Below, piece by piece: positions 1-19,760 of a stretch of DNA of 41,220 nucleotides (positions are counted from its first letter, which is position 1; each line of letters begins with the position of its first letter). Both the position numbers and the translations under genes were made by a program. The notes beneath the pieces were generated by a model. It saw nothing but the letters and a program-made list of their open reading frames with translations. It ran no database searches and was not told where the DNA came from. This stretch comes from Bacteroidia bacterium. GTDB taxonomy: Bacteria > Bacteroidota > Bacteroidia > UKL13-3. The stretch covers positions 1 through 41,220 of the forward strand of contig JAIOYZ010000031.1 of assembly GCA_021740845.1 (NCBI GenBank), written 5' to 3'.

Positions 1-3000
1 AAGATTGCTCAACTGCAACGGTAACTATCACTATCAACTCTGTGAACGATGTTCCAGTAGCTGTAAACGATGTCAACACAACCAACGAAGACACCCCAGT
101 AAATGGAACAGCACAAACCAACGATACTCCAAGTGGAGATGGTGGTAATGTATGGACATTAGTTGGAGTGAACGGCGGAGCTGCTCATGGAACGGTAACT
201 ATGAACCCTGATGGTTCCTATACTTATACACCAGATGCAAATTATAACGGAACAGATGTTTTCACTTACCAGGTTTGTGATGTAACACCAGATTGCTCAA
301 CTGCAACTGTGACTATCACTATCAACTCTGTGAACGATGTTCCAGTAGCTGTAAATGATGTCAACACAACTAACGAAGACACCCCAGTAAATGGAACTGC
401 ACAAACCAACGATACTCCAAGTGGAGATGGTGGTAATGTATGGACTTTAGTAGGAGTGAACGGTGGAGCTGCACATGGAACTGTAACTATGAATCCTGAT
501 GGTTCATATACCTATACGCCAGATGCAAACTATAATGGAACAGATGTTTTCACATACCAAGTTTGTGATGTAACTCCTGATTGCTCAACTGCAACTGTGA
601 CTATCACTATTGATCCAGTGGATGATTTACCAACTGCAAATGCAGATTTGGCAACCACAAATGAGAATGTTCCTGTTACAATTTCTGTATTGGTGAACGA
701 TGATTTTGGTGGTGATGGTCCTTCAGTTGGTTCTATCAATTTGGTTTCGCCTGCTTCTCATGGAAATGTTACCTTGAACGATGGTGGTACACCAACTGAC
801 CCAACAGACGACCAATGGATTTATACTCCAAATTCTGGTTATAGCGGAACAGATACTTATATCTATTCTATTTGCGATTTAGATAATGATTGCGATACAG
901 CTTTAGTTACCATTACTATTGCACCATCCACCTTGTCTATCACTTGCAATTTAGGTGCTAATGTTACCTGCAATGGTGGTTCTAATGGAAGTGCTTCAGT
1001 TTCGGTATCTGGTGGATTTGCACCTTATATTTATGCTTGGAGCAACGGAGGTACTACTTCAAGTGTTTCTGGCTTAATCGCTGGAACCTATATTGTAACT
1101 GTTACAGATAATGTACTAGTTTCAAGAGTTTGTAGCTTGACTGTTAGTCAGCCAACAGCCATACTTATTACAGAAAACAATATTGTAAACAATACTTGTG
1201 GTGGAACAAACAATGGTTCAATTGATATTGAAGTAAGCGGTGGAACTAGTCCGTATGTATATGCTTGGACAATGGATGGAAACCCTGGCTTTAATTCTAG
1301 TACTCAAGATTTGAGTGGATTAAGCGGTGGAACCTATTATGTAAAAGTAACGGATGCTTCTTTATGTGAAGGTTTTGATACCATTACTTTGGTTGATCCT
1401 TCTACATTGGCCGCTACCATTATTTCAACAACTAACCTTGCCTGTACAGATGTAAATTCTGGAAGCATTGATTTAGGTGTGACTGGTGGTACTTCTCCTT
1501 ATACTTATGCATGGACAAAAGTTGGTGATATCATGTTCAATAGATCAACTCAAGATATCTATAATTTGGAAGTAGGTACTTATAATGTAACCATTACTGA
1601 TGCAACTAGCTGTAGCGCAACAAGCACTGCAACTTTAACTAGTGGTTCAATTAATGCGGCCTTTACTGCTCAGCAATTAGATTGCGATGGCAATTATCAG
1701 TTGATTAATAACAGTACTGGTGCGGATGATTATGTATGGAATATTCAAGGAATTTCACCAACTGGATTAAACCATTCTATCTATTGTACTTCTTCTGATA
1801 CGGTAATTGTTTATGCATTTGCTCCAGGTACCTATCAAATAACTTTAACAGCTAATAACAATGCTGGTTGTGTGGATAGTGCTATGCAAATACTAACCAT
1901 TATTCCTCGTCCAATTGCCATTTTTGCTTTCGAATCTGTGGCATGTACCAATGAAGTTCAGTTTACTAATATGACTATCAATGGTGTTGGTTCAAACTGG
2001 AATTTTGGCGACCCAACTTCAGGAATTAACAATGAAAGTACATTGGATAATCCAAATCATGTATTTACTGCTGGTGGAACATTTGCAGTAACTTTAATTG
2101 CTAATGATGGTGCTGGTTGTGCTGATACTCTAACTAGAAATATTCCAGTTAATTCTGTTGGAACCCTTCCAGTGGCAGGATTTACAAGCGCTGTAGAAAC
2201 TGGTTCTTGTGTTACTAAAGTTCATTTCACTAACACTTCTACCAATGCTGCAACCTATATGTGGATTTTCCCTGATGGAAGTTCAAACAACCAAGAAAAT
2301 CCAAGCAAAACTTTCCCATTGGCCGGAACTTATATCATTAAGTTAATTGCTATTTCAGCTTCGGGTTGTACCGATACTGTAGAGCACAATGTGGTTATTA
2401 ATTCTAATACCTATGGTGCAGTTGCAAAATTTGTAGCCAGCGATTCTGTAATGTGTTTCAATAACAACCGTTTCAATTTTGTGAACCAATCACTTTATTA
2501 TGGTTCTGGTTGGATATCTGATTACTTATGGGATTTTGGCGACGGAACGCAAGACTTTACCAATACGTTTGTTTACGATAAAGTTTATGCTGCTCCTGGT
2601 ACCTATACCGTTCGTTTAATTGGATTGTCTCCAAGTGGATGTTCGGATACTGCTTACCAAACTATTCGCGTTAAGCCTTCTGCTGATCCAACTTTTGTAA
2701 TGACAATTGGTTGTGGTAAAACTGCTTATTTAGAACATGCAGTAGATACCAATGTTACATATGTTTGGAACTTTGGTGATGGTAATTATGCAAGCAATAC
2801 TTTAGATAGTTTTGCCCATACTTATGCCAACCCTGGTTACTATAATATTCAGTTAACTACCTATATGGATAATGGTTGTACAGATACTTATTCTATTGGA
2901 ACTTTAGCTTCTGATGGTAGAATCCCTACAGCTAATTTTAGCTACTACCAAGCTTGTGGCAACAATATCCAATTCAATAACTTATCTGTTTGGGGTTCTA

Positions 3001-4553
3001 GTTTCTTGTGGAATTTTGGTGATGGTTCTCCAATAGATTCTACTTATGAGCCATACCATAGCTTCCCAGCTGCTGGTACTTATAATGTAAGTTTAACAGT
3101 TTACAATTCTCCAACTTGTATCCATACCTTTACCATGCCAGTTGTGGCTCCTCAAGGATGGAACATAAAATTGCCAAGAGCTAAAATGGCTTTCCATGTA
3201 GAGGCTTGTACTAATGTAATTATGGCTAGAGATAGCGCCTCAATTGATGCTACTCAGTTTAAATGGTATATCAACGGTGCTTATGTTTCTACAGGTAGCA
3301 ATGTTAGTATTCCTACAAGTACAGCTGGTATTTATGAATTGTGGATGATTGCTGATAATGGATATTGTTCAGATACTTCAATTGCTGGTATCCATATCCA
3401 AGATGCTCCAATTGCTGGTTTTGATATCAATAGCAATTCTTGTTCAAGCACAATTATGGTTAGTAGCAATTCTCAAAATGCCAATTCATATGTTTGGGAA
3501 TTTGGAGAGCTTGGTTCAGACCAAAACACTGCTTATGGAAGTACAGCTAGTCATACTTATGCTAGCAACGGAACTTACCAAGTGCGTTTAATTGTATTTA
3601 ATTTAGCTGGATGTGCAGATACCATTACCCAATCGGTAACAGTTACCAATGCCAACGCAGCTAACTTAGCCAATTTTACATACAACAATGCTTTATGTAA
3701 TTGTCGTTGCCAAAATACAGTTAGGTTCAAAAACTTAACTGGCGGTGCGGGCAATGCCTACTTATGGACATTTGGTGATGGCAATACTTCGGTTCAAACC
3801 AGCCCTTCTAAAGGTTATGCAGCAGCAGGTACTTACCAAGTTACTTTAACTGCGGTTGACCCTAGTGGTTGTATGAGTACCAAAACCAAAGAGGTAACAA
3901 TTGATGCAGCGGTTAATGGTCCGAGTGCTTCATTTAGCACAGATTACCAAGTACAATGTGAGGATAGCAATAGCTTTAATTTCTATAATACAACTACTTA
4001 TATGGGTAGTGGTTGGGTAAATAAATACTATTGGTATTTTGGTGATGGAACTATGGATACTACTAATACCTTTGTTTATAACAAACATTATAGTGCCCCT
4101 GGTAATTACATTGTAACTCTTGTTGCTGTAAGTGCCGAAGGTTGTAGAGATACCATGTCTATGTATGTTCAAGTTCGTCCAATGCCATGCAGTGGAGTAT
4201 TGAAATTTGTTAATATGCAAGATGGTAGCAACTGGCAGGTTGATCCAAGATTAATTGGTGGAGATATCTTGAATTCGGTAAATACATTGGATGTAAATCT
4301 TACTTATTCTATGTATCCAAATCCTAATGATGGAAACTTTAGCATAGAATTTAAAGAAATCTTACATGAGAAAATGTATGTGAAAGTGGTAGACATTTAT
4401 GGCAAGGAAGTTTATAGCAGAGTGATGAGTGCTTTGGGTTCTAAATCGTTGGATTTTGAAATCTCAGATTTAGCAGAAGGTACTTATATGTTGATGTTAC
4501 AAAGCGATAGCCATAAGTATAGCGCTAAAAAATTCACCGTAATACATAACTAA
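1..4553 (+). CDS. Giant T9SS-secreted surface protein, 5' end missing (cadherin-like, SprB and PKD repeats)
   Basis: The reading frame is open from base 3, so the true start lies upstream; the GTG at 42 is an internal valine. Counting from 42 (1503 residues), residues 1-190 are two identical 96-residue tandem cadherin/Ig-like domains (EDTPV, YTPDANYNGTDVFTY), with the tail of another copy before them and a diverged copy at about 190-297. Residues about 300-533 hold three SprB-type repeats (CNGGSNGS, GGTSPY.Y.W, GTY.V.VTD). From about 545 to 1400 runs a long series of PKD domains with WNFGDG-type motifs and paired cysteines. Residues about 1420-1503 are a T9SS type A sorting domain (YPNPNDGNF, then AEGTYML, then KKFTV). 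The protein should cross the outer membrane by T9SS and be anchored or released; an adhesin or gliding-related role is inferred. Its PKD half is paralogous to the protein at 5684-12817. Confidence 0.93.
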   Translation, partial: DCSTATVTITINSVNDVPVAVNDVNTTNEDTPVNGTAQTNDTPSGDGGNVWTLVGVNGGAAHGTVTMNPDGSYTYTPDANYNGTDVFTYQVCDVTPDCSTATVTITINSVNDVPVAVNDVNTTNEDTPVNGTAQTNDTPSGDGGNVWTLVGVNGGAAHGTVTMNPDGSYTYTPDANYNGTDVFTYQVCDVTPDCSTATVTITIDPVDDLPTANADLATTNENVPVTISVLVNDDFGGDGPSVGSINLVSPASHGNVTLNDGGTPTDPTDDQWIYTPNSGYSGTDTYIYSICDLDNDCDTALVTITIAPSTLSITCNLGANVTCNGGSNGSASVSVSGGFAPYIYAWSNGGTTSSVSGLIAGTYIVTVTDNVLVSRVCSLTVSQPTAILITENNIVNNTCGGTNNGSIDIEVSGGTSPYVYAWTMDGNPGFNSSTQDLSGLSGGTYYVKVTDASLCEGFDTITLVDPSTLAATIISTTNLACTDVNSGSIDLGVTGGTSPYTYAWTKVGDIMFNRSTQDIYNLEVGTYNVTITDATSCSATSTATLTSGSINAAFTAQQLDCDGNYQLINNSTGADDYVWNIQGISPTGLNHSIYCTSSDTVIVYAFAPGTYQITLTANNNAGCVDSAMQILTIIPRPIAIFAFESVACTNEVQFTNMTINGVGSNWNFGDPTSGINNESTLDNPNHVFTAGGTFAVTLIANDGAGCADTLTRNIPVNSVGTLPVAGFTSAVETGSCVTKVHFTNTSTNAATYMWIFPDGSSNNQENPSKTFPLAGTYIIKLIAISASGCTDTVEHNVVINSNTYGAVAKFVASDSVMCFNNNRFNFVNQSLYYGSGWISDYLWDFGDGTQDFTNTFVYDKVYAAPGTYTVRLIGLSPSGCSDTAYQTIRVKPSADPTFVMTIGCGKTAYLEHAVDTNVTYVWNFGDGNYASNTLDSFAHTYANPGYYNIQLTTYMDNGCTDTYSIGTLASDGRIPTANFSYYQACGNNIQFNNLSVWGSSFLWNFGDGSPIDSTYEPYHSFPAAGTYNVSLTVYNSPTCIHTFTMPVVAPQGWNIKLPRAKMAFHVEACTNVIMARDSASIDATQFKWYINGAYVSTGSNVSIPTSTAGIYELWMIADNGYCSDTSIAGIHIQDAPIAGFDINSNSCSSTIMVSSNSQNANSYVWEFGELGSDQNTAYGSTASHTYASNGTYQVRLIVFNLAGCADTITQSVTVTNANAANLANFTYNNALCNCRCQNTVRFKNLTGGAGNAYLWTFGDGNTSVQTSPSKGYAAAGTYQVTLTAVDPSGCMSTKTKEVTIDAAVNGPSASFSTDYQVQCEDSNSFNFYNTTTYMGSGWVNKYYWYFGDGTMDTTNTFVYNKHYSAPGNYIVTLVAVSAEGCRDTMSMYVQVRPMPCSGVLKFVNMQDGSNWQVDPRLIGGDILNSVNTLDVNLTYSMYPNPNDGNFSIEFKEILHEKMYVKVVDIYGKEVYSRVMSALGSKSLDFEISDLAEGTYMLMLQSDSHKYSAKKFTVIHN
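42..617 (+). repeat. Two 288-bp tandem coding repeats (96 aa each)
   Basis: Units 42-329 and 330-617 encode the same cadherin-like domain; the tail of a preceding copy is visible at 3-41 and a diverged copy follows. By eye the two full units differ at 18 third-codon positions and, up to the unit boundary, at no amino acid. Confidence 0.9.
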
Positions 4554-12843: not shown

Positions 12844-12875
12844 GGGGCTCAGATTTATCTGGGCCTCTTTTTTTT
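12844..12875 (+). terminator. Rho-independent terminator after giant surface protein
   Basis: GGGGCTCAG, loop ATTTAT and CTGGGCCTC form a 9-bp stem with two G-U pairs, then eight T. It is nearly the same design as 4943-4974. GGTTTGAACC follows at 12882. Confidence 0.9.
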
Positions 12876-12878
12876 ATT

Positions 12879-13370
12879 TTCGGTTTGAACCAAAAGGCAA
12901 TGGTGAAGTTTATTTGTTTATTCGTTGTTTCTTCACCAAAGCCAATGCGTAGGTGGATGGTGTAGGTGGATGGTGTTTATTCGTTTAACTGTTTAATCGT
13001 TTAACGCATTTTAGAAATAACCAATTCGAAATCGCCGATTCGGAAAAGCCGATTCGGATTTGCAATCCGAATCTAAATGCCAGAAGGATTTGCAATCCGT
13101 TTTTCATTCAAAGCCAAGGCATTCTAAATTCATCAATTCTAGTTCAGTTAATTTCGGTTTGAACCAAAAGGCAATTGTGAAGTCTATTTGTTTATTCGTT
13201 GTTTCTTCACCAAAGCCAATGCGTAGGTGGATGGCTTAGGTGGATGGCGTTTAATCGTTTAACTGTTTAATCGTTTAACGCTTTTTAGAAATAACCGATT
13301 AGAAAAAGCCGATTCGGATTTGCAATCCGAATCTAAATGCCAGGAGGATTTGCAATCTCGACTTTTCGCA
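12879..13370. repeat. Two direct copies of a 274-bp non-coding repeat
   Basis: The stretch starting TTCGGTTTGAACCAAAAGGC at 12879 recurs at 13153, an offset of 274. Shared parts include GAAGTTTATTTGTTTATTCG (with one change), ACCAAAGCCAATGCGTAGG, GTTTAATCGTTTAACGC and GATTCGGATT-TGC-AATCCGAATC. The second copy ends near 13370. Partial copies of the same composite lie at 17615-17672 and 18451-18541, so this is a dispersed repeat and not a gene. Confidence 0.85.
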
Positions 13371-13412
13371 TTCTTGTAAGCAGCCAACCCATTCATATTT
13401 ACATTCCATATC

Positions 13413-13800
13413 CATCACCTCTAAAATTTAGCCTCCCAACTTATCCCAGAGGAATAAAATGTTTATAGAAAATTCAATGAACCAGAAAAATATGACTCCG
13501 AAGGAGTCATATAATTTCATTGGTAGGTTTTTCTATAAACATGCGGCCCCGCTGGTGCTGGTGGAATGATTGAATTGGTTTTTTTGTTTGGGTTATTGGC
13601 TTAGAATTGGTTCAGAAAAGCCAAATTTGAAAGTAGTTTTATTTCTCAATTGCTAAACTATTGCAACAAACTGCTTTGGGTGATAAAGTCGGATTGCAAA
13701 TCCTATATGTATAAAAGTTAGGATTGCAAATCCTAACTAGCAGAGTCGGATTGCAAATCCTAAATGTATAAAAGTTAGGATTGCAAATCCTAACTAGCGG
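13413..13800. repeat. Dispersed ~390-bp structured element, copy 1
   Basis: It aligns over its length with 19117-19526. It contains an outer 14-bp perfect stem (13459-13472 with 13529-13542), an inner 10-bp perfect stem with a GAA loop (13490-13499 with 13503-13512) and, at its right end, four palindromic GGATTGCAAATCC cores at 13691, 13721, 13748 and 13778. A 25-codon frame (13493-13570, MTPKESYNF..., stop TGA) is preserved in both copies. It may be a MITE-like element or a structured RNA; no transposase is present. Confidence 0.8.
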
Positions 13801-13932
13801 AGCAGCATAATCAAACAATAAAAAAAACCTCCGCTAAATCTAATCTTCCTCTGCGAACTCCGCGAGAACGGGTAAACAATCAATGAAGTAGGATGTCCCA
13901 TAAAAAGTCACTAAACCCCAACAAAAAAAATG
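13801..13932. other. Intergenic DNA after the glycosyltransferase operon, no gene
   Basis: This short A-rich stretch lies between the repeat element and the stop of the minus-strand gene at 13933. Reading minus, the stop is followed within ten bases by eight T (13921-13929 region), but I see no convincing GC stem, so it is not called as a terminator. Confidence 0.6.
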
Positions 13933-15534
13933 CTACTTGGTAAATTGAATTAATTTTACCGGCAAATCATTATCAATATAACAAGAATCTAATACGATAT
14001 AATTACGTTCTCTTTTTAAACTTTCTTCATCAGCAATATAAAAGGCACCTTCGTGTTTCTGATAAGTGTTTTTAAGTATTTGTCCACGAATAGAACTAAA
14101 ATAATAACTCGCAAAATCTTCACTGCCATTGTCTTTTACCGTGTATTTATATGCGTAAAGCGCTTTGCCAATTGTTTTATTTGCTACTCTTTCAATATCG
14201 GGTAAATAGGTCATGGGGTAATTAATCCTTGGTGGCAGGACTAAGAAATTGAAAATTAATCGAGTACTTAAGGTGATGAAAATAAAGACAAAAATTCGCT
14301 CCGATTTAAGTTTAAAATACGCATAGGTTAATCCAAGCAAAAGCACAAAAAATAGGGAGGACTTTAAAAAAACATTTGGAATATTTTGGGTTTCGGGGTG
14401 AAATGGAAATACCCAAACGCCTAAACAAAGAAGTATAGAAATTATTCCGAAAAGCATTTCAATAGATTTTCTCTGCCATTGAATGGGATTTGTTTTTTCT
14501 TCCCAAATCCATACAAAGGGAATAAACACCAAAGGCAGCAGCATTAATAAATACCTAGCATACACTTGAGGGGATGTCCAATAGATAATAAAATTAGTGA
14601 AGAATATCCAAAGTAAGTAGGAGATAAATTCGTTTTCCCTAAGGATTGTTTTAATATCTTTCCGCATTAATACTACAACCAATATCATCCAAGGGGCATA
14701 ATGGTAAAGCATCTCAAAAGGAAATGAAATCATATGCGCAAGGCTATCTTGCCATCCAAATTTTAAGACAGTTCTATTGGTGCTTTCCGAAAGTAATATC
14801 CCAAACATTTTTTCTAAAGGAATTTGGTTCAAACCGAAATACCTACCATAATAGCTTGCAATAATGCCCAAAAAAACAAGGCCGCCAACCCAATGTTGCC
14901 AACAAAAAAGTTTTTTGAAATTTCCTTTCCAAACAAAAAGTGTTACAAGCGTAATGCCTTGAAAAACCAATGCTGGTAAGCCTTTCATCAAAAAACCAAC
15001 AGCCGTTAAAAGGTAAGTAAACACAAATAACAACAACCATTTTTTCTCCTTAAAGTAAGTATAGCTAAGCATAAATCCTAGAAAGGTTGTCATAGAAAAA
15101 CAAATGTCTATAAGGCCTTGCAAGGAATCGTAAAAGAGAATTCTTCCATTGCTTACAAAAACTAATGCTGCTAAAAAACCAATTTTTTGGTTGGTATATT
15201 TTTTAGTAAACCAATAAATAATTAAGCCATAAATTACCAAAGAAACAGCCATTGGAAAACGCATGGCAAACGGACTATAATTTCCAAATGTTTTAAAGGA
15301 AAGTGCAATCAGCCAATTATAAAAGGGAGGCTTGTTAAAATAGGGTTCGCCGTTTAATGTGGGTGTAATATAGTCGCCAGAAAATATCATTTCCAATGCC
15401 ACCAAACCTCTTCTTGGTTCGTCAGAATCTACATCTATTGGCAAATATCCTAAATGACTAAATAATACATAGCCAAATAATAATACGACAAGAATTTGCC
15501 AAAATTTTAAAGGTATATTATTTAGGTAATTCAT
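13933..15534 (-). CDS. ArnT/PMT-like GT-C glycosyltransferase (GT39/GT83 type)
   Basis: Integral membrane protein of 533 residues with about ten to twelve hydrophobic segments. Near the N-terminus, after the first membrane helix, is the acidic GT-C signature DSDEPRRG (residues 36-43), followed by ALEMIFSGDYITPTLNGEPYFNKPP, typical of ArnT and PMT_2 family enzymes. These transfer a sugar from a polyprenyl-phosphate carrier to lipid A, protein or another acceptor on the outer face of the inner membrane. It is the third gene of a tight minus-strand operon: a single base separates its ATG from the stop of the flippase-like gene at 15536. The neighbouring GT2 enzyme probably makes its lipid-linked donor. 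The acceptor cannot be told from the sequence. Confidence 0.88.
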   Translation of the reverse strand: MNYLNNIPLKFWQILVVLLFGYVLFSHLGYLPIDVDSDEPRRGLVALEMIFSGDYITPTLNGEPYFNKPPFYNWLIALSFKTFGNYSPFAMRFPMAVSLVIYGLIIYWFTKKYTNQKIGFLAALVFVSNGRILFYDSLQGLIDICFSMTTFLGFMLSYTYFKEKKWLLLFVFTYLLTAVGFLMKGLPALVFQGITLVTLFVWKGNFKKLFCWQHWVGGLVFLGIIASYYGRYFGLNQIPLEKMFGILLSESTNRTVLKFGWQDSLAHMISFPFEMLYHYAPWMILVVVLMRKDIKTILRENEFISYLLWIFFTNFIIYWTSPQVYARYLLMLLPLVFIPFVWIWEEKTNPIQWQRKSIEMLFGIISILLCLGVWVFPFHPETQNIPNVFLKSSLFFVLLLGLTYAYFKLKSERIFVFIFITLSTRLIFNFLVLPPRINYPMTYLPDIERVANKTIGKALYAYKYTVKDNGSEDFASYYFSSIRGQILKNTYQKHEGAFYIADEESLKRERNYIVLDSCYIDNDLPVKLIQFTK

Positions 15535-15535
15535 A

Positions 15536-16399
15536 TCATTTGCTTAGAATAGTTTTTTTTGGTTTGATCCAAGCTCCAGGAAGTGCACTAACAAAGGAGA
15601 TAATAAAAAATAGCAAGGTAATGCTCACAGCTTTCTCCAAATTAATGTCTAAATACTGAGAAGCAAATACAAATACCAATTCTCTTGAACCGGCGCCACC
15701 AATGGTAAATGGCAAGGCAGATGCAATAGAAGAAATTAAAAACAAGAAAATATATGGAATCCAATCACTATCAATTTTTAGGGCATATGCCAAAACTAAA
15801 ATGCATATAACTTGTGAGATTTGCACTCCAATTGATTGGATAAAAGTTAATGGGATTACTGATATATAATCTGGGAAAAATAATTTGGTTACTACCCAAT
15901 AAACGAGAAGGAGAAATACCAAAGTGCCTATTACAAGATAAGAATTTATATGCAATTGTGATAGAAGTGATGGTAAAAAAATAAGACTTATTAGTGCTAA
16001 AAAAACAAGTGCAATCAGTCCGCTAATTCTATCTAGTAGAGTTGCCCAAACAATTTTTTTGACTGGAATAGAAATTATTTTATTTAACAAATAAACCTTG
16101 TATCCATCGCCACCAATGCCACCCGGTAAAAATTGGTTATAAAACATGCCAATATAATAAAGCCTTAAATTTTCTTTGAAGGAAATAAGTAAATCAATGG
16201 ATTTATAAAATTGTTGAAGTCGGATTGCACTTACCCATTTGGATAAATTAAAAAGTAGGAAGGCAGGAATAAACAAATAGAAAGAAATTGCAGAAACTAA
16301 TTCAACTGTTTTGCTATAACTTATTTTTTGGAAAACAAAATAGAATGCAATAACAGTTACCAGAATTTTCAATAACCAGATGAGCCACTTTTTTATCAT
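15536..16399 (-). CDS. Lysylphosphatidylglycerol synthase TM-like (UPF0104) membrane protein, putative flippase
   Basis: 287-residue polytopic membrane protein with about seven to eight hydrophobic helices. It has features of the LPG_synthase_TM/UPF0104 family: a GGIGGDGYKVYLL segment at residues about 96-108 and a later PFTIGGAGSRELVFVFA segment. This family includes the flippase half of MprF and proteins encoded beside polyprenyl-sugar glycosyltransferases. Its ATG overlaps the stop of the GT2 gene (ATGA at 16396-16399), and its stop is one base from the ArnT-like gene, so the three are translationally coupled. A role in flipping the polyprenyl-phosphate sugar between the GT2 and GT-C steps is inferred from context. 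No lysyl-tRNA transferase domain is present. Confidence 0.85.
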   Translation of the reverse strand: MIKKWLIWLLKILVTVIAFYFVFQKISYSKTVELVSAISFYLFIPAFLLFNLSKWVSAIRLQQFYKSIDLLISFKENLRLYYIGMFYNQFLPGGIGGDGYKVYLLNKIISIPVKKIVWATLLDRISGLIALVFLALISLIFLPSLLSQLHINSYLVIGTLVFLLLVYWVVTKLFFPDYISVIPLTFIQSIGVQISQVICILVLAYALKIDSDWIPYIFLFLISSIASALPFTIGGAGSRELVFVFASQYLDINLEKAVSITLLFFIISFVSALPGAWIKPKKTILSK

Positions 16400-17352
16400 T
16401 CAGATGGTTTATAAAAATCCTTAATTACATAGTTAGGTTTGTTTCTAGATTCGTAATAGGTTCTCATTTGAATCTCGGTCATAAACCCAAAAGTTAATAA
16501 TTGTAATCCTCCCAAAAGTAATATGATTCCTAGAATGAGCAAGGGCCTTCCCCAAATATCATGACCAGTTAATTTCAAAGCCAATAAATAAAGGTTGATT
16601 ATTCCACCAGTAAAAACGGATAGAATTCCTATAGGTCCAAACAAATGCATCGGTCGGCTAAAATACCTTTGAAAGAAAACAATCAAAAGTAAATCGCTCA
16701 TTACTTTAAAGGTTCTGCCTAAGCCATATTTTGATTTACCAAATCTTCTGGCGTGGTGCTTAACATCCACTTCCACCATTTTTGCGCCTTGCATAGCAGC
16801 CAATACGGGTATAAAGCGGTGCAACTGGCCATACAAACCAAGGTTTTTAGCAATGGAGCTTCTATAGATTTTTAGTGTGCAACCATAATCGTGTAAATAA
16901 ACGCCAGTCATTTTTCTGATGATTGCATTGGCAATTCCACTAGGTACTTTCCGCAAAAACATACCATCTTTTCTATTGGCTCGTTTGCCAGCCACAACAT
17001 CCCAATGCTCTATTTCAAGTTTTTGCAACATCCTTGGAATATCAGAAGGGTCGTTTTGTAAGTCTCCATCCATGGTTGCAATAAACTCACCCTGTGCAGC
17101 ATCAATTCCCGCAACCATAGCGGTGGTTTGACCATAATTCTTGCTAAGTACAATTAGCTTAACATTTTGGGTTGCGTGTTTTCTAATGTTCAAAACGGTG
17201 TTGTCCCTTGAACCATCATCCACCAAAATTAATTCATAAGATAATGTGGTTAATTCCTTAGAAATGGCCTCAATAAGAGGTTGAATATTATCTTCTTCGT
17301 CTTTTAGAGTAACAACCAAGGATAATTTAATTTCTGATGGAGGGCTTGCCAT
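16396..17352 (-). CDS. GT2 polyprenyl-phosphate glycosyltransferase (DPM1/ArnC/GtrB-like)
   Basis: Membrane-associated GT-A glycosyltransferase of about 318 residues. Counting from the ATG at 17352, LSLVVTLKDEEDNI (10-23) begins the fold, DDGSRDNT (45-52) is the nucleotide-binding motif and MDGDLQNDP (94-102) holds the metal-binding acidic residues. RFGKSKYGLGRTFK lies before two C-terminal membrane helices, as in GtrB and ArnC. It should transfer a sugar from a nucleotide sugar to undecaprenyl phosphate on the inner leaflet. The frame extends upstream to a TTG at 17427, but those 25 residues are not family-like, so I prefer 17352. First gene of the operon with the flippase-like and ArnT-like genes; overlap with the next is 4 bases (ATGA). 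Confidence 0.88.
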   Translation of the reverse strand: MASPPSEIKLSLVVTLKDEEDNIQPLIEAISKELTTLSYELILVDDGSRDNTVLNIRKHATQNVKLIVLSKNYGQTTAMVAGIDAAQGEFIATMDGDLQNDPSDIPRMLQKLEIEHWDVVAGKRANRKDGMFLRKVPSGIANAIIRKMTGVYLHDYGCTLKIYRSSIAKNLGLYGQLHRFIPVLAAMQGAKMVEVDVKHHARRFGKSKYGLGRTFKVMSDLLLIVFFQRYFSRPMHLFGPIGILSVFTGGIINLYLLALKLTGHDIWGRPLLILGIILLLGGLQLLTFGFMTEIQMRTYYESRNKPNYVIKDFYKPSE

Positions 17353-17427
17353 TTTCGAAAAAATAGAAGAGCTAAATTCGTGATCCAATTTAGCAGAAGT
17401 TGTTAGTTTTTTTTGTTGCAATTCCAA

Positions 17428-17836
17428 GACGGCAAGAAAGCAGACAAGTATTATAAAATGATTAATTTAATAGAAAGAAATGTCTAACTAAACGTTAGGA
17501 AAAAGATATTTTGAGATGCTTGGCCGGTTGTTTCACTTATTTTCAAAATAGGTTTTTTCGTTTTTTGTCAACTAAAGTCTAATAGGCAATTACAAACTGC
17601 TTTTTTAACTTTATGTTAAAGCATTCCAAATTTCCACCAATTAGGTTTAGTAAATTTCGGTTTGAACCAAAAGGCAATGGTTTTTGTGGAGTTTATTTGT
17701 TGTATTTCCAGAAATATAGTTTAGTTAATTTCGGTTTGAACCAAAATTAGTCTGGGATTTTGGATTTTTGATAATTTGTAGTTCAGGTTTAAACCTAAAG
17801 GTTAGGTATTTTTTATTTATATGCTAAATTTGTTAT
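17428..17836. repeat. Intergenic region with three GGTTTGAACC-type motifs
   Basis: No gene is seen. GGTTTGAACC lies at 17659-17668 and 17733-17742; the perfect palindrome GGTTTAAACC lies at 17786-17795. The section at about 17615-17672 is a partial copy of the composite repeat of 13120-13172 (CATTCCAAAT..., TTTAGTAAATTTCGG). The promoter of the minus-strand glycosyltransferase operon should lie between 17353 and about 17500; no clear box was found. Confidence 0.75.
17825..17832 (+). promoter_or_regulatory. Candidate -7 box (TAAATTTG) of the vapBC pair
   Basis: TAAATTTG fits the Bacteroidota TAnnTTTG box. No TTTG -33 box lies at the expected spacing. It ends only 5 bases before the ATG at 17837, so transcription would start at or next to the start codon (leaderless), or translation starts at the second ATG (17849). 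Confidence 0.4.
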
Positions 17837-18052
17837 ATGGAAAATACAATGCTAATCCAAATTACAAATCAAAATGCCATAGGCCTTATTCATGAATTGG
17901 AAGAGCTCCATCTTATTAAGGTATTAAAGGAAAATGTAGTTGTAAGCACCAATAAGCTTTCTAATAAATATAAAGGAATTATTAGTAAAGAAGATGGCGA
18001 AAAATTAAACGACCATATTAAACAAATGCGAAGTGAATGGAACAGTATTTAA
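17837..18052 (+). CDS. Putative antitoxin of a VapBC-type pair
   Basis: 71-residue small protein without membrane segments, preceding and overlapping a PIN-domain gene by 16 bases. The order antitoxin then toxin with overlap is typical of type II pairs. Residues 1-20 include a strand-like start (MLIQITNQNAIGLIHELEEL), and the C-terminus (KYKGIISKEDGEKLNDHIKQMRSEWNSI) resembles toxin-binding tails of Bacteroidota antitoxins seen beside VapC. It is assigned by neighbour and size, not by a strong motif. It would bind the toxin and repress its own promoter. Alternative start: ATG at 17849. Confidence 0.75.
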   Translation: MENTMLIQITNQNAIGLIHELEELHLIKVLKENVVVSTNKLSNKYKGIISKEDGEKLNDHIKQMRSEWNSI

Positions 18053-18423
18053 TAGATACAAATGTAATTTCACATTATTTTTCGGCATCTTTACCTCCAA
18101 ATGGGATGCAGTTTATGGATTCTATTTTCGATGCAATTCCTAATATTTCAATAATCACTCAAATTGAACTTCTAAGTTGGAAGACCAATATAGAAAGTGA
18201 GCAAAAAGTTGAGGAATTTATTACAGATAGCAATGTATTAGAACTTTCTTCTACCATAGTTTCTAAGTGTGTAATTATTAGAAGAAATAAAAAAATAAAA
18301 ACGCCAGATGCCATTATTGCTGCAACTGCAATAGTGAATAATTACATATTGATCACCAGCAATGAAATAGACTTTTCAAATATTAAAGGTTTAAAAATTA
18401 TCAATCCTTTTAAGTTGTTATAG
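18037..18423 (+). CDS. vapC: VapC-like PIN-domain toxin (endoribonuclease)
   Basis: 128-residue PIN-domain protein. The conserved acidic residues are visible: D7 in YLIDTNVIS, E44 in ITQIELLSW, D91 in KTPDAIIAATAI, and a fourth in the NEIDF stretch (D112). Length and motif order fit VapC toxins, Mg-dependent RNases that often cut tRNA or rRNA. It overlaps the antitoxin gene by 16 bases, which couples their translation. The pair lies between copies of dispersed repeats and has AT-rich composition, which fits a mobile accessory module. All catalytic residues are present, so the toxin is probably active. The target RNA cannot be told. Confidence 0.88.
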   Translation: MEQYLIDTNVISHYFSASLPPNGMQFMDSIFDAIPNISIITQIELLSWKTNIESEQKVEEFITDSNVLELSSTIVSKCVIIRRNKKIKTPDAIIAATAIVNNYILITSNEIDFSNIKGLKIINPFKLL

Positions 18424-18679
18424 TTTATTTTTCTACCCTAATTCACCGCCGCTTCGGATTTGCAATCCGACTTTTCATTCAAGGCCAAGGCATCCCAAAT
18501 ACTTCAATTTAGGTTTAGTGATTTTCGGTTTGAACCAAAACTTATGATTATTTTTTTTATTCTTATCGCAAATCTGGATAGTTGGAACAATTTAATTTTT
18601 GGGAAGGGTGATTAGAAAAGAAAAAAATGATTTAATTTTCTATGGTTTTACAATTTTTTGAATTTTAATTTGAAACAGA
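18424..18679. repeat. Intergenic partial copy of the composite repeat
   Basis: CGGATTTGCAATCCG at 18455-18469, then TTTTCATTCAAGGCCAAGGC and GGTTTGAACC at 18527-18536, repeat the order found at 13085-13165. No gene is seen; the rest is AT-rich. Confidence 0.75.
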
Positions 18680-19015
18680 ATGACAAAGTCAAAATGGAAG
18701 AAACTGGACGCAATTGTATTTATTCTGCTTTTCCTTTTCTTTGAGGTTTTTGGTGTTTTCTTGCTTTTTGGCAACCCTAAGAATAACCTCATTGCCCTGC
18801 TGAGAGATGCCAATAATAAATTTGTTAATTTAAGTTATGAAACGGGATTGTTGTTTTATTGGATTGGCTCCTACTTTTTAGATACAATCATTTGGGGCAT
18901 TTTGGGTCAAACCCTAATTTTCCTGTTTTTTTTGTTTATGTATAAATTACTTAAGCTTTTGGTAATTAAATTTCTGTCAAAAATCAATTACCTGAGGAAA
19001 AACATAGGTGAATGA
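18680..19015 (+). CDS. Hypothetical small membrane protein (111 aa)
   Basis: I do not recognise a family. The product starts with a charged KSKWKK segment. Hydrophobic helices lie at about residues 11-31 (IVFILLFLFFEVFGVFLLFG), 54-73 and 75-97, so it is an inner-membrane protein with two to three spans. The C-terminus is basic (KFLSKINYLRKN). It stands alone between the toxin-antitoxin pair and a repeat region with AT-rich flanks, and no terminator or promoter could be assigned. It might be accessory DNA; a function is not inferred. Confidence 0.6.
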   Translation: MTKSKWKKLDAIVFILLFLFFEVFGVFLLFGNPKNNLIALLRDANNKFVNLSYETGLLFYWIGSYFLDTIIWGILGQTLIFLFFLFMYKLLKLLVIKFLSKINYLRKNIGE

Positions 19016-19116
19016 TTTCATATCCAACACATTTGAGTCAATGAAATGGAATGTCTTTTAATTTTAATCGGGATCAAATTTCAAAATTTGCTTAATATTA
19101 AATTACCCACCAAAAC

Positions 19117-19526
19117 CATCACCTCTAAAATTTATCCTACCAACTTATCCCAGCGGTATAAGATGTTTATAGAAAAATCAATGCACCAGAAAAATGTGAC
19201 TCCGAAGGAGTCATATAATTTCTTGGGTAGATTTTTCTATAAACTTACGGCCCCGCTGGGGCCGGTAGAATAATTGAATTGGTTTTTTGTTCAGGTTAAT
19301 GCCTTGGAATTGGTTCAGAAAAGCCAGATTTGAAATTAGTTTTATTTCTCAATCACAAATCTATTGCAACAATCTGCTTCGGGTGTAAAGTCGGATTGCA
19401 AATCCTAAATGTATTAAAGTTAGGATTGCAAATCCTAACTAGCGGATTCGGATTGCAAATCCTAAATGTATTAAAGTTAGGATTGCAAATCCTAACTAGC
19501 AGAGTCGGATTGCAAATCCTAACTAG
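19117..19526. repeat. Dispersed ~400-bp structured element, copy 2
   Basis: This is the second copy of the element at 13413-13800. The outer stem is 15 bp and perfect (19165-19179 with 19230-19244), with an inner GACTCC-GAA-GGAGTC hairpin (19198-19212). CGGCCCC-GCT-GGGGCCG follows at 19248-19264. Five GGATTGCAAATCC cores lie at 19393, 19423, 19450, 19480 and 19507. The 25-codon frame of copy 1 is again open (ends TAA at 19271-19273), which makes an apparent 75-codon ORF here that I do not accept as a gene. Confidence 0.8.
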
Positions 19527-19760
19527 CAGACCCAAACCCACAAACTCCCAAACCCACAAACGAATAAACGATTAAACGATTAAACGATTAAACGCATAAA
19601 CGCATAAACGCATAAACAATTAAACAAATTTGCCCTATTAGACAATAACAAAAACTCCAACAAAAATCAAGTTTTTAGGTATTTAGTTTTGAGGATTAAT
19701 TCTTACTTTCGTCCCTGAGTTTAATGGGTTTTTAACAGTCAAAAAAAATAGCAGAATTAT
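19527..19760. other. Low-complexity intergenic DNA before the ccm genes
   Basis: The first part is a run of short direct repeats, ACGATTAAACGATTAAACG and ATAAACGCATAAACGC (19560-19625). The AT-rich leader of ccmC follows. TACTTTCG at 19704-19711 is a one-mismatch match to the TAnnTTTG box and may be the ccm promoter; no -33 box was found. Confidence 0.5.

Follow-up and report, generated by a model that had tools for sequence, protein, structure and literature searches.

A dispersed three-hairpin palindromic DNA element, mostly of Bacteroidota, clusters at genes of putative TnpA-Y1 subclass 1.2 enzymes

Two composite repeats in the window

The stretch analyzed here (the window) is a complete 41,220-base contig (C21; JAIOYZ010000031.1) from the 4.09-Mb, 66-contig genome of a Bacteroidia bacterium (GCA_021740845.1), and it carries two copies of a ~400-bp repeat containing the three-hairpin palindromic element that is the subject of this report (Table 1). 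The copies are 90% identical across positions 27 to 423 of a 451-base query (E = 1e-150), and each is a composite in which a three-hairpin core is followed, after a gap of ~120 bp, by an unrelated array of GGATTGCAAATCC hairpins. The core is laid out as an outer hairpin, an arm, a central GACTCC-GAA-GGAGTC hairpin, the matching arm, and a second outer hairpin. An earlier note on this DNA had described a two-copy element with nested hairpins, and our analysis bears this out: the folding z-scores of the copies are -4.1 and -7.3, and the window has two occurrences of the arm pattern, which is present in 0 of 100 shuffles. The outer stem, described there as 14-15 bp, pairs over 14 of 14 bp in copy 1 and 15 bp in copy 2, the central hairpin is found in both copies, and the right-hand CGGCCCC-GCT-GGGGCCG hairpin is, as had been noted, perfect in copy 2 but not in copy 1. 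Beyond that description, we found a third, left-hand hairpin, a GGATTGCAAATCC tail that is separate in nature, and more copies elsewhere in the genome.

A dispersed family with a conserved fold

Additional copies lie on other contigs of the same genome, where they were found both with a window copy as the query and with the arm pattern TTTATAGAAA-N30-60-TTTCTATAAA. Common to the family are the arms, the hairpin GACYCC-loop-GGRGTC at the center, and one outer hairpin per side, while its linkers and loops are free. Scanning genomes with the arm pattern returned at least 118 loci; of the 118 listed, 32 carry the full pattern of arms and central hairpin (30 in Bacteroidota, 1 in Ignavibacteriota, and 1 without a phylum); the remaining 86 listed loci lack the full pattern and belong to many phyla, with 37 in Bacteroidota. 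The core is a dispersed family found mostly in Bacteroidota. Among 60 genomes (the window genome and 59 of its kin), the exact-arm pattern is confined to the window genome and a single further genus in the same family, and the distribution is therefore patchy. Among viral contigs, 27 stretches matched the exact arms, and none has the central-hairpin pattern. Genomes chosen for the element hold from at least 4 to at least 89 model matches each, these counts being lower bounds with both strands counted and at most 141 candidates scored per genome. Echinicola pacifica (G071, locus L107) has at least 28 such strand-counted matches, and two near-identical copies lie 213 bp apart there.

The earlier note took the pairing of the outer stem in both window copies as a hint of structure being kept, and strong covariation across the collected copies upholds this. 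In 35 elements, the proposed pairing is kept in 97.5% of cells, and the covariation score is 0.318 against a shuffled mean of 0.115 (0 of 500 shuffles), with slid versions scoring at most 0.08. The model behind this set was built from elements picked by exact arms, which explains why the arms are invariant in it. In a second set, made up of 124 strand-rows at 63 sites close to tnpA genes, for which exact arms were not required but rows were fitted to the model and both strands counted, covariation is 0.348 against 0.128 (0 of 500), and the arms vary yet pair in 87-89% of cells. The outer hairpins change freely in sequence and stay paired, and relative to GACCCC/GGGGTC, the GACTCC/GGAGTC of the window carries a compensated change.

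Pairing and covariation this strong could also have been selected in a transcript, for example, as a terminator, attenuator, or mRNA stabilizer, and the small number of elements between divergent genes (2 divergent, 8 convergent, and 12 tandem among the 22 elements with both neighbors) would fit such an RNA-level role. However, the element is palindromic and its two strands score alike (101.0 and 93.8 bits for copy 1), so that the covariation speaks for a folded nucleic acid and not for RNA in particular; pairing in single-stranded DNA accounts for it equally well. Moreover, loops and linkers are free, and Rfam has no family at gathering score, the five sub-threshold matches (E of 0.03 to 3.8) being judged to be chance. 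We thus found nothing specific to the structured RNA that the earlier note had offered and consider an RNA-level element improbable.

The open frame

In both window copies, a frame encoding ..TPKESYNF(I/L)GRFFYK.. ends at a stop in the same place, as claimed before, although it extends for 36 codons from its ATG instead of 25. A micropeptide gene would account for the frame being open in both copies, and open frames are also more frequent in the family (18 of 43 elements, related copies counted) than in linker-shuffled elements (10.7; standard deviation [SD], 2.7). However, the frame is closed in 25 of the 43 elements, the core length is not a multiple of 3 in 31, and the codon differences between the window copies consist of 8 replacement and 2 silent changes and one stop-to-stop change. 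On the basis of core lengths, stops, and replacement changes, we reject the micropeptide gene, to which we assign next to no probability, and read the open frame as a by-product of the palindromic layout. In addition, none of 29 elements (from the 43, those outside the window whose loci span 5 kb or more) overlaps an open reading frame (ORF) of at least 120 amino acids, compared with 80% of random positions. Rickettsia palindromic elements also combine a palindromic repeat with an open frame, but they are inserted within genes, unlike the elements examined here.

An element-flanked Y1 enzyme gene

The window genome encodes a 153-amino-acid Y1_Tnp protein (contig C32, 670-1131) whose gene is flanked by elements at 267-395, 1220-1347, and 1397-1524, whereas its other Y1 loci (L197, L199, and L200) have no element at E ≤ 1. 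The earlier note did not foresee this association with a Y1 transposase gene. NCBIfam labels the protein an IS200/IS605 transposase (65 bits; cutoff, 55), and solved structures give weak matches to transposases, a solved relative being 2xm3, which we take to be ISDra2 TnpA. Its motifs are DHIH, WQ, and YINRQKTHH, the last fitting Y---Q--HH, and among 96 homologs Y---Q--HH is present in 93, WQ in 94, and [DN]HxH in 87. In Quentin et al. (2018; PMC6006769), DH[IV]H, WQ, and Y---Q--HH form the signature of TnpA-Y1 subclass 1.2, a group defined in that year as close kin of IS200 transposases without insertion sequence (IS) properties and generally without typical terminal hairpins. By this signature, the element-flanked enzyme is assigned to subclass 1.2. 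Matches to the enzyme at E ≤ 1e-20, distant homologs included, occur in 101 of 198 genomes of the class sample.

The element recurs at the loci of these homologs. Matches of at least 40 bits to R1, our model of the element, are present at 31 of 96 enzyme loci, namely, 16 of 30 in genomes chosen for the element and 11 of 29 and 4 of 37 in class members not chosen for it; at E ≤ 0.01, the corresponding counts are 19, 18, and 11. The chosen set includes tnpA loci (L201, L202, and L208) that contributed elements to the training of the model, no such overlap was noticed in the unchosen sets, and one locus truncated by a contig end (L212) was scored as below 40 bits. By comparison, two background samples of 400 kb each contain no R1 match of 40 bits, the first having two weaker sites at E ≤ 0.001, and no such match occurs at 30 RAYT-family (REP-associated tyrosine transposase; REP, repetitive extragenic palindrome) loci from the same genomes. 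Fisher tests of enzyme loci against controls gave P values of 2e-6 and 3e-11, the background being counted as 235 windows (800 kb divided by ~3.4 kb). When mapped onto a tree built from the 96 enzymes, presence of a match of at least 40 bits requires 13 changes, compared with 26.4 (SD, 1.9; minimum, 20) in 200 label shuffles.

The model-free density of short GC-rich hairpins is 3.02, 1.99, and 1.73 per kb in the enzyme flanks and 0.245 and 0.357 in the background, a ~5- to 12-fold excess, and at least two hairpins lie within 600 bp at 46 of 96 enzyme loci compared with 39 of 640 background windows. A structural scan of 59 loci was positive at 9 under strict settings and at 16 under looser ones, compared with 1 place in 400 kb. 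Divergent homologs have divergent arms in the same layout (ATGTTTGTAG, ATATCGGTAG, ATATGGGTAG, and TATGATTATAG), some of which contain GTAG. Runs of elements adjoin the subclass 1.2 tnpA genes at L282, with five strong elements and a weak one in a row on one side, and at L291, with six in a row on one side and one more opposite; their periods are ~165 and ~261 bp, respectively. In G082 (L164/L202), an Ignavibacteriota genome and hence outside Bacteroidota proper, the element adjoins a 72%-identical enzyme.

Together with the target-duplicating units described below, several observations weigh against a partnership of element and enzyme. An R1 match of 40 bits is missing at 65 of the 96 enzyme loci, among them all six chosen-set loci below 45% identity (L217-L222). 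Conversely, 3 of 25 element-bearing genomes (G063, G071, and G072) lack an enzyme homolog, and two of these, the Echinicola isolate G071 and G072, have no Y1 match at all; the elements of G071 are perhaps relics or were moved by another transposase. The exact-arm element is missing from all 18 congeners of the window genome, two of which give partial weak DNA matches only. The GT[AG]G foot is absent from 35 of 35 elements at each of the three hairpins on either strand. As for the controls, the background stretches were hand-picked on long contigs and are nonrandom, and the element favors intergenic DNA, so that its excess over background may partly reflect intergenic flanks; the RAYT loci serve as a control for this reason. 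Of these, one has an R1 match of 39.8 bits, and 18 of the 30 are over the cutoff of the RAYT family.

Target-duplicating units

The earlier note also considered a miniature inverted-repeat transposable element (MITE), and this holds for part of the family. In Flavobacterium G069, the element is embedded in a 163-bp unit that has CAATGTCATTAAGTTAAGG as its terminal repeats and is bordered on each side by the 10-bp duplication TCTGCGTACT, and other MITEs with the same ends have unrelated interiors. The corresponding spacer is shorter than 60 bp in 15 of the 19 relatives in which both flanks were found, compared with ~220 bp in G069. Since what was inserted is a unit with terminal repeats and target duplication, this is no proof that the bare element moved. 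The ten copies in Tannerella G061 lie in a common ~190-bp unit bordered by 9-10 bp duplications, and their flanks match at 7.0 of 9 positions compared with 5.55 (SD, 0.28) in the null (0 of 200). The G061 terminal repeats are imperfect, and the duplications of the G069 and G061 units are degenerate in several copies. Outside the hairpins, a six-member Bacteroidales group has GTCTGCTGAAAAACTC-like sequence in common. Because target duplications are not left by Y1 transposases, those in G069 and G061 point to movement of the element by another transposase there, which also counts against the partnership.

These units are what would be expected if the element were cargo or the interior of DDE-type MITEs, a stable hairpin module present in several MITE families, with its clustering at subclass 1.2 genes being a by-product of shared repeat-rich neighborhoods. 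However, seven aligned copies in the window genome have no outer sequence common to all, although pairs share short flanks, and in a terminal-repeat search 6 of 52 elements scored above the 95th percentile of the null. Moreover, RAYT loci are likewise repeat rich and lack matches of 40 bits, whereas the presence of the element tracks the enzyme tree and its arms differ between enzyme lineages. We therefore regard MITE cargo as an unlikely account of the family, though one to be taken seriously.

Loci L409 to L427 of G069 belong to a MITE family whose ends are near-constant (CAATGTCATTAAGTTAAG) and flanked by ~10-bp target duplications, and which has several unrelated interiors; among these loci, no unit long enough to be autonomous was seen.

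The tail, a second REP-like family

The GGATTGCAAATCC hairpins have 13 sites in the window, counting both forms (spans 13056-13800, 18456-18468, and 19393-19530). Elsewhere in the genome, five sites flank a RAYT-type gene (contig C54, 77932-78402) with the motifs NHIH and YIHNNP, which fit published subclass 2.6, and no such hairpin was found at L197, L198, or L200 or in 800 kb of other genomes. This RAYT is likely the partner gene of the tail array. The window copies are dispersed copies of the element adjoining a second, unrelated REP-like array, and since hairpins of that second family flank a RAYT-type gene, the composite joins repeats of two different Y1 systems.

A candidate substrate for subclass 1.2 enzymes

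Taken together, the family, its structure, the avoidance of long ORFs by the elements checked, and the clustering at subclass 1.2 genes lead us to read the core as a noncoding, extragenic DNA element of the REP-like kind, ~125 bp long and built from three mini-hairpins and a long arm pair, whose closest partner is a TnpA-Y1 subclass 1.2 HUH enzyme. We give this reading a probability of about 0.62. The association with the enzyme gene in cis is observed, and binding, cleavage, or movement of the element by the enzyme is what we infer from it. When the element becomes single stranded, for example, on the lagging strand, the arms would pair and the hairpins would fold; the subclass 1.2 enzyme may then recognize the folded shape and cut or join at the element, and copies could spread around the enzyme gene and later through intergenic DNA. 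More tentatively, and at somewhat less than even odds, subclass 1.2 enzymes and three-hairpin elements may constitute an undescribed class of REPtron, mainly in Bacteroidota, in which each lineage would process its own single-stranded palindrome via [AG]TAG-type sequences borne by the arms and the products would also be spread by MITEs.

The closest parallel is the REP/REPtron of TnpA-REP/RAYT (class 2), in which multicopy extragenic palindromes, single or arrayed, likewise flank a Y1 gene. However, the class 2 enzymes carry Y..NP, whereas the partner here has the Y---Q--HH of subclass 1.2, and unlike REPs, the element has no GT[AG]G at the hairpin foot and consists of three short free-loop hairpins inside a long-armed palindrome. 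Hairpins recognized in single-stranded form by Y1 transposases are also a feature of IS200/IS605 ends (subclass 1.1) and of palindrome-associated transposable elements (PATEs), their nonautonomous relatives. In contrast to these, complete elements of one kind occur to either side of the gene and also on their own in other places, with no separate left and right ends. Bacteroidota MITEs (BrickBuilt in Porphyromonas and MITECca01 in Cardinium) resemble the element in being short noncoding repeats and, for G069 and G061, in the terminal repeats and target duplications of the units; in the seven aligned window genome copies, no terminal repeats common to all were seen, and the hairpin architecture is common to units with different ends. 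The flanked enzyme shares with published subclass 1.2 both the signature and its occurrence in Bacteroidota, but that subclass is described as generally lacking typical hairpins (PMC6006769), whereas hairpins flank many such genes here. Further comparison literature comprised PMC3733652, PMC9769881, and PMC5771137. We found no prior description of the element in the literature searched, subscription literature and ISfinder being outside its scope.

Because subclass 1.2 was characterized as lacking IS properties and generally lacking typical hairpins (PMC6006769), the question of what it acts on was left open. A concrete candidate is now provided by a covarying hairpin element that is found clustered at many subclass 1.2 genes and tracks the enzyme tree, and one hairpin module occurs both in a Y1 neighborhood and in target-duplicating units. 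Given that about half of the class sample (see above) has a match to the enzyme, the intergenic DNA of many Bacteroidota may be shaped by pairs of this kind.

Features of the window

Table 1. Coordinates of the two composite copies in the window
Feature	Coordinates	Strand	Basis
Three-hairpin palindromic element, copy 1	13438..13563	.	Model R1: 101.0 bits on +, 93.8 on -
Outer left hairpin, copy 1 (TATCCC-AGA-GGAATA, imperfect)	13442..13456	.	Sequence; alignment A1 column positions
Outer stem left arm, copy 1, ATGTTTATAGAAAA	13459..13472	.	Inverted repeat I17, 14/14
Central hairpin GACTCC-GAA-GGAGTC, copy 1	13494..13508	.	Sequence, fold
Outer stem right arm, copy 1, TTTTCTATAAACAT	13529..13542	.	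Inverted repeat, 14/14
Outer right hairpin, copy 1 (CGGCCCC-GCT-GGTGCTG, imperfect)	13544..13560	.	Sequence
Open frame, copy 1, judged a by-product rather than a gene	13459..13569	+	Frame test
Tail, copy 1: two 57-bp units of the GGATTGCAAATCC hairpin family, second REP-like family	13687..13800	.	Direct repeat D3
Three-hairpin palindromic element, copy 2	19142..19267	.	Model R1: 101.0 bits on +, 93.7 on -
Outer left hairpin, copy 2 (TATCCC-AGC-GGTATA, imperfect)	19146..19160	.	Sequence; alignment columns
Outer stem left arm, copy 2, GTTTATAGAAAAATC, 15 bp	19165..19179	.	Sequence, fold
Central hairpin GACTCC-GAA-GGAGTC, copy 2	19198..19212	.	Sequence, fold
Outer stem right arm, copy 2, GATTTTTCTATAAAC, 15 bp	19230..19244	.	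Sequence, fold
Outer right hairpin, copy 2 (CGGCCCC-GCT-GGGGCCG, perfect)	19248..19264	.	Sequence, fold
Open frame, copy 2, judged a by-product rather than a gene	19163..19273	+	Frame test
Tail, copy 2: five GGATTGCAAATCC hairpin units	19391..19530	.	Direct repeats D1/D2

Directly upstream of copy 1 lies a 171-bp direct repeat (12874-13044 and 13148-13318; 93% identical), and short simple repeats of the AAACGATTAAACG type adjoin both composites (~13250-13280 and 19560-19640). Elsewhere in the window, the large protein encoded at 42-4553 combines a type IX secretion tail with PKD, cadherin-like, and SprB repeats; secretion-tail and SprB domains in the window suggest a member of Bacteroidota. 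A PIN-domain protein, possibly half of a toxin-antitoxin pair judging from its predicted function, is encoded at 18037-18423.

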